Source: Nitrosospira lacus (GTDB lineage Bacteria; Pseudomonadota; Gammaproteobacteria; Burkholderiales; Nitrosomonadaceae). From it: DNA of 64,000 bases. Positions 25,070 to 63,540 of this stretch are shown here, piece by piece. Location of the stretch: positions 2,451,137 through 2,515,136 of the forward strand of contig NZ_CP021106.3 of the NCBI RefSeq assembly GCF_000355765.4. The letters run 5' to 3'. The translations under genes were made by a program, and so were the position numbers. The first letter of the stretch is position 1. Each line of letters opens with the position of its first letter. The notes below the pieces were generated by a model, which was given only the letters and a program-made list of their open reading frames with translations, had not been told where the DNA came from and did no database searches.

Positions 25070-25153
25070 CGTTGGCGGCAAAACATGGTTATTTCAGGCT
25101 TGCTGCTCAGCGGCTATGGTGCACCTGATAAAGACGAATCGGTAGAGGATGTA

Positions 25154-25885
25154 ATGACACGACTTGTCCTGATTGCATTTTTGTTTTTCGCCGGACCCGC
25201 TATCACCGCCGATATTCCCCCGGTTGACGTGCCCGACACGATGGGGGAACGGGTAAAAGCCTGTATTGCCTGTCACGGTCCGGAGGACAAAGAGGGCCGG
25301 GATGCGTATTATCCCCGTATCGCGGGCAAGCCTGAGGGCTATCTGTTCAATCAGTTGCGCAATTTCCGGGACGGCCGGCGTCATTACCGGCCCATGGGGT
25401 TGCTGCTGGAAAATTTGCCCGATCAATACTTGCGGGAGATGGCTGCCTATTTCGCTTCGCTGAAGCAGGCTTTTCCCCCACCCGAGCCGCTGACCTCCTC
25501 GCCCGCCGAAATAAAGCTGGCTCGAAGCCTTGTGACCCTGGGAGATCCCGCACGAAAAATACCCGCCTGCGTTGAATGTCATGGCAAGGATCTAATGGGA
25601 ACCGCGCCTTTCATCCCTGGCCTGCTGGGTCTGCCACGCGTCTACATTATCGCCCAGTTCGGCAACTGGCAGAATGGCGGCCTGATGCGAGGGCAGACAC
25701 CCGACTGCATGTCGGAGATTGCAAAACAGCTTACTACCGATGAGGCAAGCGCCATCGCAGCGTGGCTGGCCGCGCAACCGGTCTCCGAAACCGTTTTGAA
25801 GCACGAAGGCCCGGTGGCAGCCCTTCCCGGCAAACTCGCCAAGCGCTGCGGCAGCATCGTCCTGCACTCCGGGGGACCGCGATGA
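25154..25885 (+). CDS. Diheme cytochrome c (c4-like)
   Basis: A 243-residue exported cytochrome with signal peptide MTRLVLIAFLFFAGPAITAD and two haem-binding sites, CIACH and CVECH, one per c4-like half. Axial methionines are likely in YRPMGLL and DLMGTAP. The ATG at 25154 with AGAGGAT upstream gives a normal leader; an earlier ATG at 25085 does not. The stop overlaps the start of the next triheme cytochrome as ATGA. It closely resembles the N-terminal part of the pentaheme protein at 60913-62814. It probably passes electrons in the periplasm together with the next gene product. Confidence 0.88.
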   Translation: MTRLVLIAFLFFAGPAITADIPPVDVPDTMGERVKACIACHGPEDKEGRDAYYPRIAGKPEGYLFNQLRNFRDGRRHYRPMGLLLENLPDQYLREMAAYFASLKQAFPPPEPLTSSPAEIKLARSLVTLGDPARKIPACVECHGKDLMGTAPFIPGLLGLPRVYIIAQFGNWQNGGLMRGQTPDCMSEIAKQLTTDEASAIAAWLAAQPVSETVLKHEGPVAALPGKLAKRCGSIVLHSGGPR

Positions 25886-27156
25886 AACCTGTTGTCATCG
25901 CTGCCGCGCTTGCCGGACTCATAGGTCTTGGCCTGTTCCTGGCGCCGATGAATCGGCCACCAGTGAACGAATCATCGGCGTCAAGGACTGAGGACCCCGC
26001 CAAACGACAGGCAAAAGGTGCTTACCTCGCGCAAGCCGGTAATTGCATGGGGTGCCATACCGCCCAGGATGGCAGGCCTTACGCAGGAGGGCATATCCTT
26101 GCCACGTCAATCGGAACATTCATCACACCTAACATCACGCCCGATCCGGAAACCGGTATCGGACAATGGACCGAACAGGATTTCTGGCGCGCACTGCATG
26201 ACGGCAAGGCACGCGACGGCAGCCCCTTATACCCGGCTTTTCCCTACACGGATTACACAAAGGTGACACGCGAGGATGCCGATGCGATCTTCGCCTATCT
26301 TCAATCACTTCCCCCCGTCTCTCAACGCAATCCACCGAGCCGGATCAATTTCCCCTTCAACCTGCGTCCCCTCCTGTACGTCTGGCGCGCCCTTTACTTC
26401 GAGCAAGGCGTTTATCGGCCCGAGGCCGCAAAGAACGATGAATGGAACCGTGGCGCCTATCTCGTGCAAGGGCTCGGACATTGCAATGCTTGCCACACGG
26501 CGCGGAATCCGCTGGGTGCAAGCCAGGGCAATGTACTGGGAGGAGGGCAACTCATGGGTTCGAACTGGTATGCACCCTCCCTGACGTCCCTCCAGGAGGG
26601 CAGCGCCTCGGACTGGCCGATGGATGATATCGTTCAACTACTCACGACAGGCTTGTCATCCCGGGCAGCCGCAACAGGGCCGATGGCCGACGTCGTCAGC
26701 CAAAGCCTCCAATATCTGACGCCGGATGATGCGCGCGCCATGGCTACCTATCTCAAATCATTACCTGGAAGCGCTCCACATTCCAGGGGAACAGCCCCCG
26801 AGCTTACCGATGAGGTGGATAGGCAGTTTCGGCGGGGCGGCGAGATTTACGAGAAATATTGTCAGGATTGCCATGGCAGCTTCGGGCAAGGCGCGCCCGG
26901 CGTTTATCCTGCGCTGGCAGGCAACCGTGGCGTCACCCTCGCCTCCCCGATTAACGCGATTCGCAGCATACTCAACGGCGGCTATGCGCCCGTCACGGAA
27001 AGCAGCCCACGCCCCTACGGCATGCCGCCGTTTGCGCAAATCCTGCCCGATGAAGATATCGCGCTGGTCTTATCGTATATCCGTAATGCATGGGGCAATC
27101 GTGGCAGCCTGGTAACGGCGGTTCAGGTCGACCGGAGCAGGAAAGGTGCGCAGTAA
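25882..27156 (+). CDS. Triheme cytochrome c (dehydrogenase-subunit type)
   Basis: A 424-residue protein with an N-terminal hydrophobic leader (MKPVVIAAALAGLIGLGLFL) and three CxxCH sites: CMGCH, CNACH and CQDCH. The layout (about 130 residues per haem, with PYAGG, PNITPD and PLYPAFPY patterns) is that of the membrane-bound cytochrome subunit of alcohol or gluconate dehydrogenases, but no dehydrogenase gene is next to it. It overlaps the preceding diheme gene by 4 bases and so is probably translated with it. The pair is the last part of the copper operon reading frame series. A fused version of both proteins exists at 60913-62814. Confidence 0.88.
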   Translation: MKPVVIAAALAGLIGLGLFLAPMNRPPVNESSASRTEDPAKRQAKGAYLAQAGNCMGCHTAQDGRPYAGGHILATSIGTFITPNITPDPETGIGQWTEQDFWRALHDGKARDGSPLYPAFPYTDYTKVTREDADAIFAYLQSLPPVSQRNPPSRINFPFNLRPLLYVWRALYFEQGVYRPEAAKNDEWNRGAYLVQGLGHCNACHTARNPLGASQGNVLGGGQLMGSNWYAPSLTSLQEGSASDWPMDDIVQLLTTGLSSRAAATGPMADVVSQSLQYLTPDDARAMATYLKSLPGSAPHSRGTAPELTDEVDRQFRRGGEIYEKYCQDCHGSFGQGAPGVYPALAGNRGVTLASPINAIRSILNGGYAPVTESSPRPYGMPPFAQILPDEDIALVLSYIRNAWGNRGSLVTAVQVDRSRKGAQ

Positions 27157-32199: not shown

Positions 32200-32218
32200 A
32201 GTGTACTTCAGTCCAATA
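32200..32218 (+). repeat. Copy of the GTACTTCAGTCCAAT element
   Basis: GAGTGTACTTCAGTCCAAT is identical to 9808-9826, and similarity continues for some 30 bases downstream in both places. It lies 72 bases before the PEP-CTERM gene. Confidence 0.75.
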
Positions 32219-32289
32219 GGAAATACGCCCGAAATCCGTAAGATGCGGGATAAGTAACTTTTATCCACGTCGACCCCACAGGGAAAAAA

Positions 32290-32979
32290 ATGAGCAAACT
32301 ATCCGGACCGACCAGCATCTTGGCACTTGTCCTCGCCACCGCATCATCTGCGCAGGCATTACCCATATATTCCACGGCGAATTTCTCGGGCGAGGTCACC
32401 AATGTGACCAAGTTTGGCAGTGACTTGGGACTGCAAAAAACAAATACATGCAGCGGTTGTCCTGAAGGCTTTGTTGGCGGCCATTTACTGTTCGACGCGA
32501 ATCTCACGCCTGGAGCGGGCAGCGGAATCATAAGCGTACCGCTGGCGTCGGTCGCCGGAGCCTCGAACGATCTGATCTTCGATATCATCCTCGGTGGTAA
32601 TCCACTGGAATTCTATTTCGGTGATGCGAATACCCAGGATGGACCCGCTATCCAGTTTAAAAACGGCGTGTTCAACGGCTTGGATTTTGTGCGAGACTTT
32701 TCGCTCAACGGGCATTCCTTTGAGCTCAGCATGCAGGGAAAGAACTGGGACATAAAAACATTGAATAGTAATGGCGTTTATTCGCAGCTCGCCGCCTCTG
32801 GCCATTTAAATATCGGCAACGCCGGTCTGACCCATCAGCAAGTGTTCATGCCAACACCCGAGCCATCCGCGGCGTTACCCGCAAGTGTTCCCGAGCCCGC
32901 CACGCTGGCGCTTCTCGGTCTCGGATTCCTGGGTCTCGCCGCCGTACATCGGCGTCGGCGGGAGCTTGTCCGATATTGA
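32290..32979 (+). CDS. PEP-CTERM surface protein
   Basis: A 229-residue exported protein. The signal peptide (MSKLSGPTSILALVLATASS, cleaved after AQA) and the C-terminal sorting signal VPEPATLALLGLGFLGLAAV followed by HRRRR are those of PEP-CTERM proteins, which exosortase cleaves and releases to the surface or exopolysaccharide. A CSGC pair near residue 55 may form a disulfide. The gene stands alone with a terminator after it. A TIGR04073-type companion is encoded at 13989, but no exosortase gene is in the window. Confidence 0.92.
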   Translation: MSKLSGPTSILALVLATASSAQALPIYSTANFSGEVTNVTKFGSDLGLQKTNTCSGCPEGFVGGHLLFDANLTPGAGSGIISVPLASVAGASNDLIFDIILGGNPLEFYFGDANTQDGPAIQFKNGVFNGLDFVRDFSLNGHSFELSMQGKNWDIKTLNSNGVYSQLAASGHLNIGNAGLTHQQVFMPTPEPSAALPASVPEPATLALLGLGFLGLAAVHRRRRELVRY

Positions 32980-60912: not shown

Positions 60913-62814
60913 TCAGTGCATTCCCTCCCGGCTCCTGTCGACCTGAGCCTTTGTTACCAGACTCGCGCCGTTACCCCATGCGTTCCGTATATACGACAAG
61001 ACCAGCGCGACCTCATCGTCGCGCAACACCTGTGCAAACGGCGGCATGCCATAGGGGCGCGGATTACCCGTGGTGGATGGCGGATAACCTCCGTTGAGGA
61101 CGCTGCGAATCGCATTAATGGGAGGTGTCATGGTAACGCCCCGATTGCCGGCCAGGGGCGGATAAATGCCCGGAGCACCCTGGCCGGAAGTTCCGTGGCA
61201 ATCCTGGCAATGCTTTTCGTAGATTTTGGCGCCCTGCCGAAACCATTGCCGCACCTGCTCGGTTAGCGGGGGAGAACCAGCTTGGGCACGCGGAGCGCTC
61301 TCGGGCAATGATTTCAGATAGACGGCCATCGCACGCGCATCCTCCCTGGTCAGGTACTGAAGGCCATGCCTGACGACATCGGCCATGGGGCCGGACGTAG
61401 TCGCCCGCAGGGAAGTACCCGTCGTAAGCAACTGCGCAATCTCCTCGATCGGCCAGTCAGCGGAGCCCGCTTCCATGCGCGCGGTTAAGGATGGCGCATA
61501 CCAGTTCGAACCCATGATCTGCCCGCCTCCCAAAGCATCCTCTCCAGTCGTGGCCCCCAGCGGATTACGTTCCGCGTGGCAAGCGTTGCAATGGCCGAGT
61601 CCCTGTACCAGGTAAGCGCCACGGTTCCACTCCCTGCTTTTTGAGGATTCCGGCTGATAAACCCCCGGCTTGAAGTAGACGGCACGCCATAGGCTCAACA
61701 GCGGCTGGAAGTTGTAGGGGAAATCGATCTTGCCCGGCGGGTTATTTTGCGCAACAGGTACGAGCGCTTTAAGATGGGCGAAAATGGCATCCGAGTCCTC
61801 GCGCGTGATTTTCGTATACTCGGTATAGGGGAAGGCGGGATATAAAGGCCGGCCATCGCGCGATTTGCCGGCATGCAACGCTTTCCAGAAATCCTCTTCA
61901 TTCCAGTGTCCGATTCCTGTTGCCTTGTCCGGCGTAATATTAGGCGAGACAAAGGTGCCAAAGGGTGTAGACAGCCGGCGCCCCCCCGCATAAGGGCGGC
62001 CGCCCCGGTCCGTGTGGCAGCCCATGCAATTGGCCGCCTGTGCGAGGTAAGCTCCTCGCGCCTGGCGCTGTCCGGAAGGTGCTGCCGCTGTGTTCGGGAT
62101 CAACGTTTCCACTTCTCCTTGTTGCATGGTGCTGCCGCAGCGCCGGAACATCTCAGCGGAAAGGGCGGCAGCAGGGCCCGTATTCTCGGGAACAGGCCGG
62201 GCAGCCAGCCATGCTGCCAAGGCGTTGGTTTCATGGGTGGTAAGTTGCTTTGCGATGTCGGACATACAGTCCGCCGCCTGTCCACGCAACATGCCGCCGC
62301 TTTGCCAGGCACCGAACTGGGCAATCATGTAGACACGCGGCAAACCCAGTAAACCGGGAATAAATGGCGCCGTACCCATCAGTTCCTTCCCATGGCATTC
62401 GACGCACGCGGGGATTTTCCGCGCAGGGTCTCCCTGGTTGACAAGTCTCAGGGCCAGCTTGACTTCATCAGCTGAGGAGACCGTGCGCTCCGGCGGCGGG
62501 AAAGGTTGTTTGAGCGCTGAAAAATAGGCTGCCATATCCAGCAAATACTGATCCGAAACATTGGCAAGCAGCAAGGCCATGGGCCGGTAATAACGCTTGC
62601 CATCCCTGAAATTGCGCAGCTGATTGAAGAGATAGCCCTTGGGCTTGCCTGCGATACGAGGGTAATACCCATCCCTTCCCGCCTTGTTTTCCGCACCGTG
62701 GCAGGCGACACACGCCTTTACCCGTTCCTCCATTGTATCGGGCACGTCCAGCGGAGCAGCAGCGATGGAAAATCCGGTAGCGCATATCAGTATTACCAAA
62801 ACGAGTGATCTCAT
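60913..62814 (-). CDS. Pentaheme cytochrome c (fused diheme-triheme)
   Basis: A 633-residue exported protein with signal peptide MRSLVLVILICATGFSIAAA. It carries five CxxCH sites: CVACH, CVECH, then CMGCH, CNACH and CQDCH. Residues 1-220 match the diheme cytochrome at 25154, and the rest matches the triheme cytochrome at 25882 closely; the two are here joined into one chain by a linker (TLIPNTAAAPSGQRQARG). It should carry electrons in the periplasm. The ATG at 62814 is preferred; the frame extends 75 codons further up without a leader. No neighbour on the same strand is close. Confidence 0.9.
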   Translation of the reverse strand: MRSLVLVILICATGFSIAAAPLDVPDTMEERVKACVACHGAENKAGRDGYYPRIAGKPKGYLFNQLRNFRDGKRYYRPMALLLANVSDQYLLDMAAYFSALKQPFPPPERTVSSADEVKLALRLVNQGDPARKIPACVECHGKELMGTAPFIPGLLGLPRVYMIAQFGAWQSGGMLRGQAADCMSDIAKQLTTHETNALAAWLAARPVPENTGPAAALSAEMFRRCGSTMQQGEVETLIPNTAAAPSGQRQARGAYLAQAANCMGCHTDRGGRPYAGGRRLSTPFGTFVSPNITPDKATGIGHWNEEDFWKALHAGKSRDGRPLYPAFPYTEYTKITREDSDAIFAHLKALVPVAQNNPPGKIDFPYNFQPLLSLWRAVYFKPGVYQPESSKSREWNRGAYLVQGLGHCNACHAERNPLGATTGEDALGGGQIMGSNWYAPSLTARMEAGSADWPIEEIAQLLTTGTSLRATTSGPMADVVRHGLQYLTREDARAMAVYLKSLPESAPRAQAGSPPLTEQVRQWFRQGAKIYEKHCQDCHGTSGQGAPGIYPPLAGNRGVTMTPPINAIRSVLNGGYPPSTTGNPRPYGMPPFAQVLRDDEVALVLSYIRNAWGNGASLVTKAQVDRSREGMH

Positions 62815-63159
62815 CAGTTCGCCATTTATTCTTGTACGGAGTGATTTGATGAGACTATGCAAGCCCCCTGAAGTTGCAGCAAAGACCCGTGATAGCATGC
62901 GCCTCGACAGAACTCCTGACGGTGCGTGCAATCGAATGGCCGCGCCGCGTAACACCTTCCATATTATCCTGAATCCCGCAATTAGCCGGGGCGGGGTATG
63001 CGGTTTTCGATGATGGACGTAGCGGGCACGGCAAATCATTTTAAAAAGATGTTAATGACGGGAATTTTTACAGTTGTCTCATGAAGAGTAACCAAGGATC
63101 AAGAAAGAGTTCGTGTAAATGACTGTTATCCAATAATGTTTAATTTAACAACAATTTTC

Positions 63160-63175
63160 TGGCACGAGTTATGCA
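63160..63175 (+). promoter_or_regulatory. Sigma-54 (RpoN) promoter
   Basis: TGGCACGAGTTATGCA matches the RpoN consensus TGGCACGNNNNTTGCA at every fixed position but one (A for T at position 12), with GG and GC at the correct -24/-12 spacing. Transcription would start near 63186. Confidence 0.75.
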
Positions 63176-63185
63176 TGCAACCAAA

Positions 63186-63250
63186 ACAGGGGACAGTACT
63201 CCCCTGCAAGAGGGTCAACCCGGGGCGGTGATCCCGCACCGGGTTTTTTC
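63186..63250 (+). ncRNA. Candidate sigma-54-driven small RNA
   Basis: From the expected start near 63186 the RNA would fold as a 7-bp hairpin CAGGGGA-CAGTAC-TCCCCTG (63187-63206), a short single-stranded CAAGAGGGTC linker, and a terminator hairpin (AACCCGG with CCGGGTT, inner GCGG with CCGC, 63217-63245) ending in a T-run. No ribosome site or reading frame is inside. Length, promoter and terminator are those of a small RNA of about 65 nucleotides. No known sRNA family was recognised. Confidence 0.55.
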
Positions 63251-63540
63251 GTGACTTGTAAAGATAAAACCATAACCCAACCGAAATTTTGAAATGCGTA
63301 AAATTATTGGTTTTACCGGATCGCATGTGCTCTACTTTCTGGCTGACTGTCTGGACCTTGTAATGGATAAAACGTGTTCCCGGCGGTTTTTTCCTCTCTA
63401 CAGGAAATTGCTGGTACGCTCGGCGGATGTGGAAAATTGGGGAGGTGGCGGCGGCGCCTGGGGCATGCTTTGGGCAAAACTGAGATAACCAATACCGTTT
63501 TGCAGATCGACGAGAAAGCGTGCAGCATACCTTTGTCTTC

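Follow-up and report, generated by a model that had tools for sequence, protein, structure and literature searches.

Sequence features of a predicted PrsR/sigma-54 unit that may yield a short structured RNA and a conserved 64-aa protein in Nitrosospira lacus

The short RNAs Qrr, CrcZ and NrsZ are transcribed from sigma-54 promoters equipped with upstream activating sites. Together with GlmY they belong to the RNAs activated by response regulators, the known pairs being LuxO-Qrr, CbrB-CrcZ, NtrC-NrsZ and GlrR/QseF-GlmY (PMC7602753, PMC6075780), and the portion of the second source used here also assigns to GlmY a sigma-54 promoter with upstream activating sites (PMC6075780). The other related systems are the PEP-CTERM promoters: in the part of the work of Haft et al. 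(2006) drawn upon here, they combine a motif 1 with a sigma-54 motif 2, the spacer has a mean of 62.8 nt (range 32-92), PrsR is the predicted activator, and a few such box sites also precede other genes (PMC1569441). In the case of Aquincola tertiaricarbonis, according to the excerpted text, the TGGCAC -24 element of the pepA promoter was placed by primer extension, its dependence on rpoN1 was shown and an enhancer was predicted upstream (PMC9850573); in Desulfovibrio vulgaris, the PEP-CTERM response regulator DVUA0057 is reported, in the excerpt at hand, to bind its predicted targets (PMC3333781). The PEP-CTERM/exosortase regulon is so far known mainly for surface proteins, and titles and abstract openings of the open-licence literature gave no RNA in a PEP-CTERM/exosortase/PrsR regulon among the matches listed.

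The locus described here lies in a window of 64,000 nucleotides, which is the whole stretch of Nitrosospira lacus DNA that was analysed. An enhancer, a -24/-12 promoter and an intrinsic terminator together frame a predicted short RNA in this window (Table 1), and the finding points to an RNA layer in the regulon. A preliminary description had presented the element as an independently transcribed small RNA; the conserved structured RNA has stood up to analysis, the picture of an RNA gene standing alone in a region devoid of genes has not. Since the next feature on this strand is a conserved gene for a small protein, the RNA may be its 5' leader. The comparison set consists of 23 Nitrosospira-group genomes, the own genome (G000) included. 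The window also holds two similar multi-haem cytochrome c genes, at 25085-27156 (+) and 60913-63039 (-), the first of which extends over two overlapping frames, perhaps owing to a frameshift.

Table 1. Features of the locus, in window coordinates
Feature	Sequence	Position	Strand	Remark
PrsR-type enhancer box	TGACGGGAATTTTTACA	63056-63072	+	Lies 104 bp ahead of the sigma-54 promoter
Sigma-54 (-24/-12) promoter	TGGCACGAGTTATGCA	63160-63175	+	One departure from consensus
Predicted RNA of about 64 nt, terminated		63186-63249	+	Start deduced from the -12 element
5' hairpin, 7 bp	CAGGGGA-CAGTAC-TCCCCTG	63187-63206	+	
Purine-rich 10-nt linker	CAAGAGGGTC	63207-63216	+	Weak pairing with the U-tail possible
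Intrinsic terminator	AACCCGG.GCGG-TGATC-CCGC.CCGGGTT	63217-63249	+	Interrupted hairpin (7+4 bp) followed by six T
Conserved 64-aa ORF		63294-63488	+	ATG 44 nt past the terminator

The promoter, its enhancer box and the predicted activator

The sigma-54 consensus is TGGCACG-N4-TTGC, and the promoter of Table 1 matches it at all but one fixed position, as had been claimed. The exact form TGGCACGNNNNNTGCW occurs in the window at this site only; when one mismatch is allowed, five matches are found against 3.1 expected, so that the sigma-54 box alone is weak evidence. In block comparisons with the window copy, the seven relatives that possess the full element show an identity of 89-100% for the sigma-54 site and of 76-88% for the enhancer box. 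Upstream of the -24 element, a 17-bp box similar to TGACGARAATNTTTACA is found in the 12 ORF-bearing genomes and in one further genome, G022, at a distance from the promoter of 102-104 or 112-115 bp (102 in G022), two spacings that differ by about one helical turn. That all 13 genomes possessing the locus combine an enhancer box with a -24/-12 site, at one of two fixed spacings, supports the RpoN control proposed earlier. The pattern of box plus promoter, which was designed on the locus itself, occurs at 17 places in the 23 genomes, against three for the reversed control pattern: the 12 ORF loci, G022, a degenerate second copy in G014, one place in G013, and one place each in G006 and G021 preceding genes whose products carry a PEP-CTERM-like C-terminal tail.

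The window box has the form of the 17-nt motif 1 ending in TTTACA, and its resemblance to PEP-CTERM boxes was scored with a matrix. A scan of 30 PEP-CTERM loci of the own genome gave five gene-strand pairs of box and sigma-54 site, 77-111 bp apart, two weak pairs on the other strand, which were dropped, and 23 loci without a pair. The matrix comprises seven PEP-CTERM promoter boxes, these five and those of G006 and G021; five of the seven were found by means of a consensus seeded from the locus, which makes the comparison partly circular, and the boxes of G006 and G021 were found by TTTACA and a sigma-54 site only, so that their first eleven bases match independently. Against a background made of the same 30 loci, the five training sites included, the window box scores 19.8 (training sites 17.8-23.9). 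The 13 locus boxes score 13.1-21.8, nine of them inside the training range and those of G013, G016, G014 and G022 below it, and all 13 belong to the best-scoring 1e-5 to 5e-5 of 184,316 17-mers. The spacer between box and sigma-54 site is about 87 nt in the window and 84-97 nt over the locus, the 94-97 nt of seven of the 12 orthologues being just beyond the published 32-92 nt.

The genome encodes PrsR (TIGR02915, 758.7 bits for a cut-off of 502.6), and the same protein stays below the cut-off of the NtrC model (361.3 versus 558.6); the PrsR cut-off is passed in 22 of the 23 genomes. Because the box resembles the PEP-CTERM box and the genome encodes PrsR, this PEP-CTERM/exosortase response regulator is preferred over NtrC and is the likely activator, its binding being predicted from motif similarity. 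Elsewhere in the genus, a TGGCACGAGATATGC site, which is a candidate promoter but has no PrsR box that could be recognised, precedes by about 400 bp the amoC gene of G003 (L009, G003:C1:2646086, minus strand), whose product is subunit C of ammonia monooxygenase (NF041641, 399.4 bits, cut-off 319).

The predicted RNA and its relatives

The RNA would start ten bases after the sigma-54 site. As stated beforehand, it combines a hairpin with a strong terminator in about 65 nt: a 7-bp 5' hairpin and an interrupted 7+4-bp terminator with six T, the 3' end being flagged by a simple terminator scan. The 65-nt stretch folds with -34.5 kcal/mol (z -4.6), better than 200 of 200 shuffles. The linker described as unpaired is present, yet it is not entirely free, since it may pair weakly with the U-tail; this leaves little free seed and counts against a trans-acting RNA. 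The absence of a known family is confirmed, Rfam giving no match to the window RNA at E<=1. The element was found once by blastn in the 3.26-Mb single-contig genome, where the core of the terminator hairpin occurs at two places (up to three mismatches). A translated leader peptide was discarded, since the 31-aa frame that spans the RNA begins at 63136, upstream of the predicted transcript start. Kissing dimers were considered for the self-complementary AGUACU loop, which is absent from G010, G015 and G016.

A blastn match at E<=1 is obtained in 16 of the 23 genomes, seven of the matches covering most of the element and nine being short pieces, and an eighth full element was found by inspection upstream of the ORF of G015. 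Promoter and RNA are thus kept in eight genomes (G000, G006, G009, G010, G013, G015, G016 and G019). The covariance model matches 63186-63253 with 86 bits, the window sequence itself being in the training set; it matches at E<=1 in 28 of 125 genomes of the family, and matches of at least 50 bits are confined to the eight genomes with the full element. A model built from six sequences recovers the two full elements kept out of its training, G016 with 70 bits and G010 with 50 bits; it finds G014 weakly (14.8 bits) and gives no match in G011, G012 and G018.

In an alignment of nine sequences, 90.7% of the pair cells are paired and both partners have changed in six of the 18 pairs, values attained by 0-3 of 500 shuffles in an alignment whose fitting to the model structure favours the covariation result; with the six training sequences alone, 29-78 of 500 shuffles reach the values and the covariation is not decisive. 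Compensatory changes are present in both hairpins. The conservation of promoter and hairpins in relatives, proposed at the outset as a check, is borne out in eight of the 23 genomes, the own genome included. Folded singly, the eight elements and G014 give z values of -4.6 to -1.3, the last being that of G010, for which 21 of 200 shuffles are equally good. Relative to the window, the RNA block is 49-87% identical in the seven relatives, the spacer 36-79%, the stretch from RNA to ATG 10-74% and the coding sequence 70-84%; the lowest RNA value, that of G010 (49%), lies inside the spacer range. The structure is better conserved than its surroundings in most relatives, which is among the strongest points in favour of a trans-acting RNA.

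The simple scan flags an RNA-strand terminator in four of the eight full elements (G000, G006, G013 and G016); those of G009, G019, G010 and G015, which are interrupted or have shorter tails, escape it. By eye, those of G019 (five T) and G009 (four T) end in a T-run, and those of G010 and G015 are weak. In the minimum-energy nascent folds, no antiterminator is common to the eight sequences, so that a classical conditional attenuator is unsupported and an unconditional leaky terminator fits all observations. Switching of the 5' hairpin to alternative pairings was also discarded as a conserved feature, the eight nascent folds having no form of it in common.

Elsewhere in the genus, the covariance model gives further matches of 16-38 bits. 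Of 48 such loci, 24 carry a second motif, GTACTTYAGTCCAATWGG...GTAAGAT, upstream of the match, and none of the 48 carries it in either of two control stretches. All 24 loci with the motif, and one of the 24 others, contain the hairpin core GCCCGG..GCAG.GATCCTGC.CCGGGC. This count is partly circular, since both patterns, that of the second promoter and that of the hairpin core, were drawn up from the first loci; 12 of the 24 positives were added afterwards (in one set of 40 stretches, 36 were examined; L178, L203, L204 and L205 were left out). Predicted RNAs with the motif and the 3' hairpin are L124-L133, L144, L145, L167, L171, L173, L174, L176, L177, L181-L183, L188, L191 and L196, together with L147 of the own genome. 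The terminator-ended RNAs of this second class possess a near-constant 3' hairpin and occur more than once in some genomes; some of their loci are without an evident same-strand gene downstream, others have one, and for seven of them Rfam contains no match at E<=1.

In the own genome, the match at 2048519 (L147, G000:C1:2048519; 16.3 bits) has the second motif and lies upstream of a PEP-CTERM gene, and the match at 1711514 (24.0 bits) is without it. In the window, positions 32203-32220 hold an exact GTACTTCAGTCCAATAGG followed by GTAAGATG, upstream of the gene of a PEP-CTERM protein (32290-32979, +), and for this reason the second motif is maybe another type of PEP-CTERM promoter. The two RNA classes may descend from one common ancestor RNA or may merely share a type of terminator. 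It is conceivable, if rather doubtful, that they constitute an undescribed family of Nitrosospira short RNAs, with the shared 3' hairpin GCCCGG..GCRG.GATCCYGC.CCGGGC and two surface-related promoters (PrsR/sigma-54 and GTACTTYAGTCCAATWGG...GTAAGAT), which would form a layer over the exosortase/PEP-CTERM programme with the 64-aa protein as partner. Among the literature matches listed, those for the promoter sequence AGTCCAATT look unrelated, and nothing relevant appears for small RNAs of Nitrosospira.

The 64-aa ORF and its association with the RNA

The surrounding 725 bases had been described as containing no protein gene, a statement contradicted by the 64-aa ORF, orthologues of which occur in 12 of the 23 genomes (own included), each behind the sigma-54/box promoter. 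The 11 other orthologues are 71-86% identical to the window ORF, and the dN/dS values against the window copy are 0.065-0.165 in ten comparisons, G010 giving no value; as these ratios indicate, the ORF is under purifying selection. The alignment (A3) includes 11 of the 12 orthologues, that of G011 being left out as nearly the same as that of G012. The ORF has no relative in Pfam, NCBIfam or PDB, including a PDB search with the ORF profile, and is without the PEP-CTERM motif that is usual, but not required, behind PEP-CTERM-box promoters. Its named relatives all belong to Nitrosospira or Nitrosovibrio (nine of nine loci). Longer paralogues with 39-45% identity and a WGGG-GTW motif are found at L045, L048, L049, L051, L052 and L053 (G000:C1:1970949) and are preceded by the second promoter motif. 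The degenerate second copy in G014 (L222, G014:C57:11769) comprises box, sigma-54 site, leader and 64-aa ORF.

The full element is followed by the ORF in eight of eight cases, but RNA and ORF are in part separable: promoter and ORF occur without the terminator in G011, G012, G018 and G014, where the simple scan flags none on the gene strand. G022 is the only genome with box and promoter and without the 64-aa ORF. Its leader is diverged (18.9 bits, different 5' fold) and its 3' hairpin is bulged, with five T, unflagged and no better than shuffles (z -1.1); because of this divergence and of the unflagged hairpin, G022 is only mild evidence for an ORF-independent RNA. In G022 (L247, C12, 1580-2065), the gene of an exosortase-associated TIGR04073 protein lies about 300 bp after the sigma-54 site. 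In a PrsR tree of 22 of the 23 genomes (G015, whose PrsR is present only as fragments, was left out), seven genomes with ORF and RNA group together with a support of 89/97; on the other side of the split stand G014, G018, G011 and G012, with promoter and ORF, and G022. Neither the promoter locus nor the ORF was found in the remaining ten genomes of the tree.

Proposed model, alternatives and known systems

In the model that we favour, and that we hold to be slightly less likely than not, the locus would be a transcription unit of the PEP-CTERM regulon, controlled by PrsR and sigma-54, that yields mainly a discrete short RNA and, by read-through, a small protein. PrsR would bind the enhancer box and activate the sigma-54 polymerase at the promoter; transcription would start near 63186 and mostly stop at 63249, yielding a two-hairpin RNA of about 64 nt, whose status of main product and whose efficiency of termination are suggested by sequence and conservation. 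A minority of polymerases would read through into the 64-aa gene, as we infer from the window, where no sigma-70-like site separates the terminator from the ATG. The RNA itself would be functional and would most probably serve the exosortase/PEP-CTERM surface programme as a small regulator, possibly acting in trans. The strongest points for such a trans-acting RNA are the conserved structure, the strong terminator of the window, the fact that no antiterminator was found and the occurrence of related hairpins in other RNAs of the genus; the strongest point against it is the steady company of the ORF, which may be the main selected product because 12 of 12 orthologues keep the promoter.

This company is also what speaks for the main rival, a cis leader whose hairpins would attenuate the 64-aa gene, in a regulated or a leaky manner, with no function in trans. 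The joint occurrence of promoter and ORF in all 12 orthologues, the purifying selection on the ORF, the short distance from terminator to ATG in the window and the fact that 11 of the 12 orthologues, window included, have no sigma-70-like site anywhere from the promoter to the ATG are all in its favour. We nevertheless consider it less likely than the favoured model: the eight sequences share no antiterminator, and the interval separating the RNA from the ATG ranges between about 40 and 200 nt among relatives, the RNA of G016 lying about 200 nt before the ATG with a sigma-70-like site (9/12 bases) in between, the only one among the 12 orthologues. Still less probable is a plain promoter of the 64-aa gene, in which the hairpins would either stabilise the transcript as a 5' UTR or act as a leaky terminator, in both cases with no regulatory role; the unflagged terminators in four ORF-bearing relatives and in four of the eight full elements would suit it, but the compensatory changes in both hairpins and the strong hairpin with six T in the window argue against it. 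Finally, a small RNA under NtrC/nitrogen control, counted here because the -24/-12 site alone presumably does not discriminate between activators, is highly improbable, since the upstream box resembles PEP-CTERM enhancers and is, we assume, unlike an NtrC site; of the nitrogen or surface regulation first suggested, only the surface part is retained, the box being PEP-CTERM-like and the regulator passing the PrsR cut-off and failing that of NtrC.

If the PrsR/sigma-54 model with a discrete short RNA is true, this RNA and the 64-aa protein would be specific new members of the PrsR regulon, in ammonia oxidisers relevant to soil nitrogen. The host of DVUA0057 is only distantly related, and the excerpted text mentions no RNA target of this regulator (PMC3333781). 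The A. tertiaricarbonis pepA promoter resembles the locus by its TGGCAC -24 element and its predicted upstream enhancer, and differs from it in driving a PEP-CTERM protein gene, with no terminator-ended leader mentioned in the excerpt (PMC9850573). With Qrr, CrcZ, NrsZ and GlmY, as the source portions present them, the locus has in common a response regulator, here the predicted PrsR, and a short RNA; it departs from them by an RNA of only about 64 nt, by the small-protein gene 44 nt downstream and by the lack of an Rfam match. In comparison with the PEP-CTERM-box promoters (PrsK/PrsR/PrsT), as far as the source portions describe them, the locus has a structured terminator-ended RNA, a 64-aa ORF without the PEP-CTERM motif and a spacer of 84-97 nt, and it shares with them the 17-nt box ending in TTTACA, the downstream sigma-54 motif, a PrsR encoded in the genome and a long non-coding upstream region.
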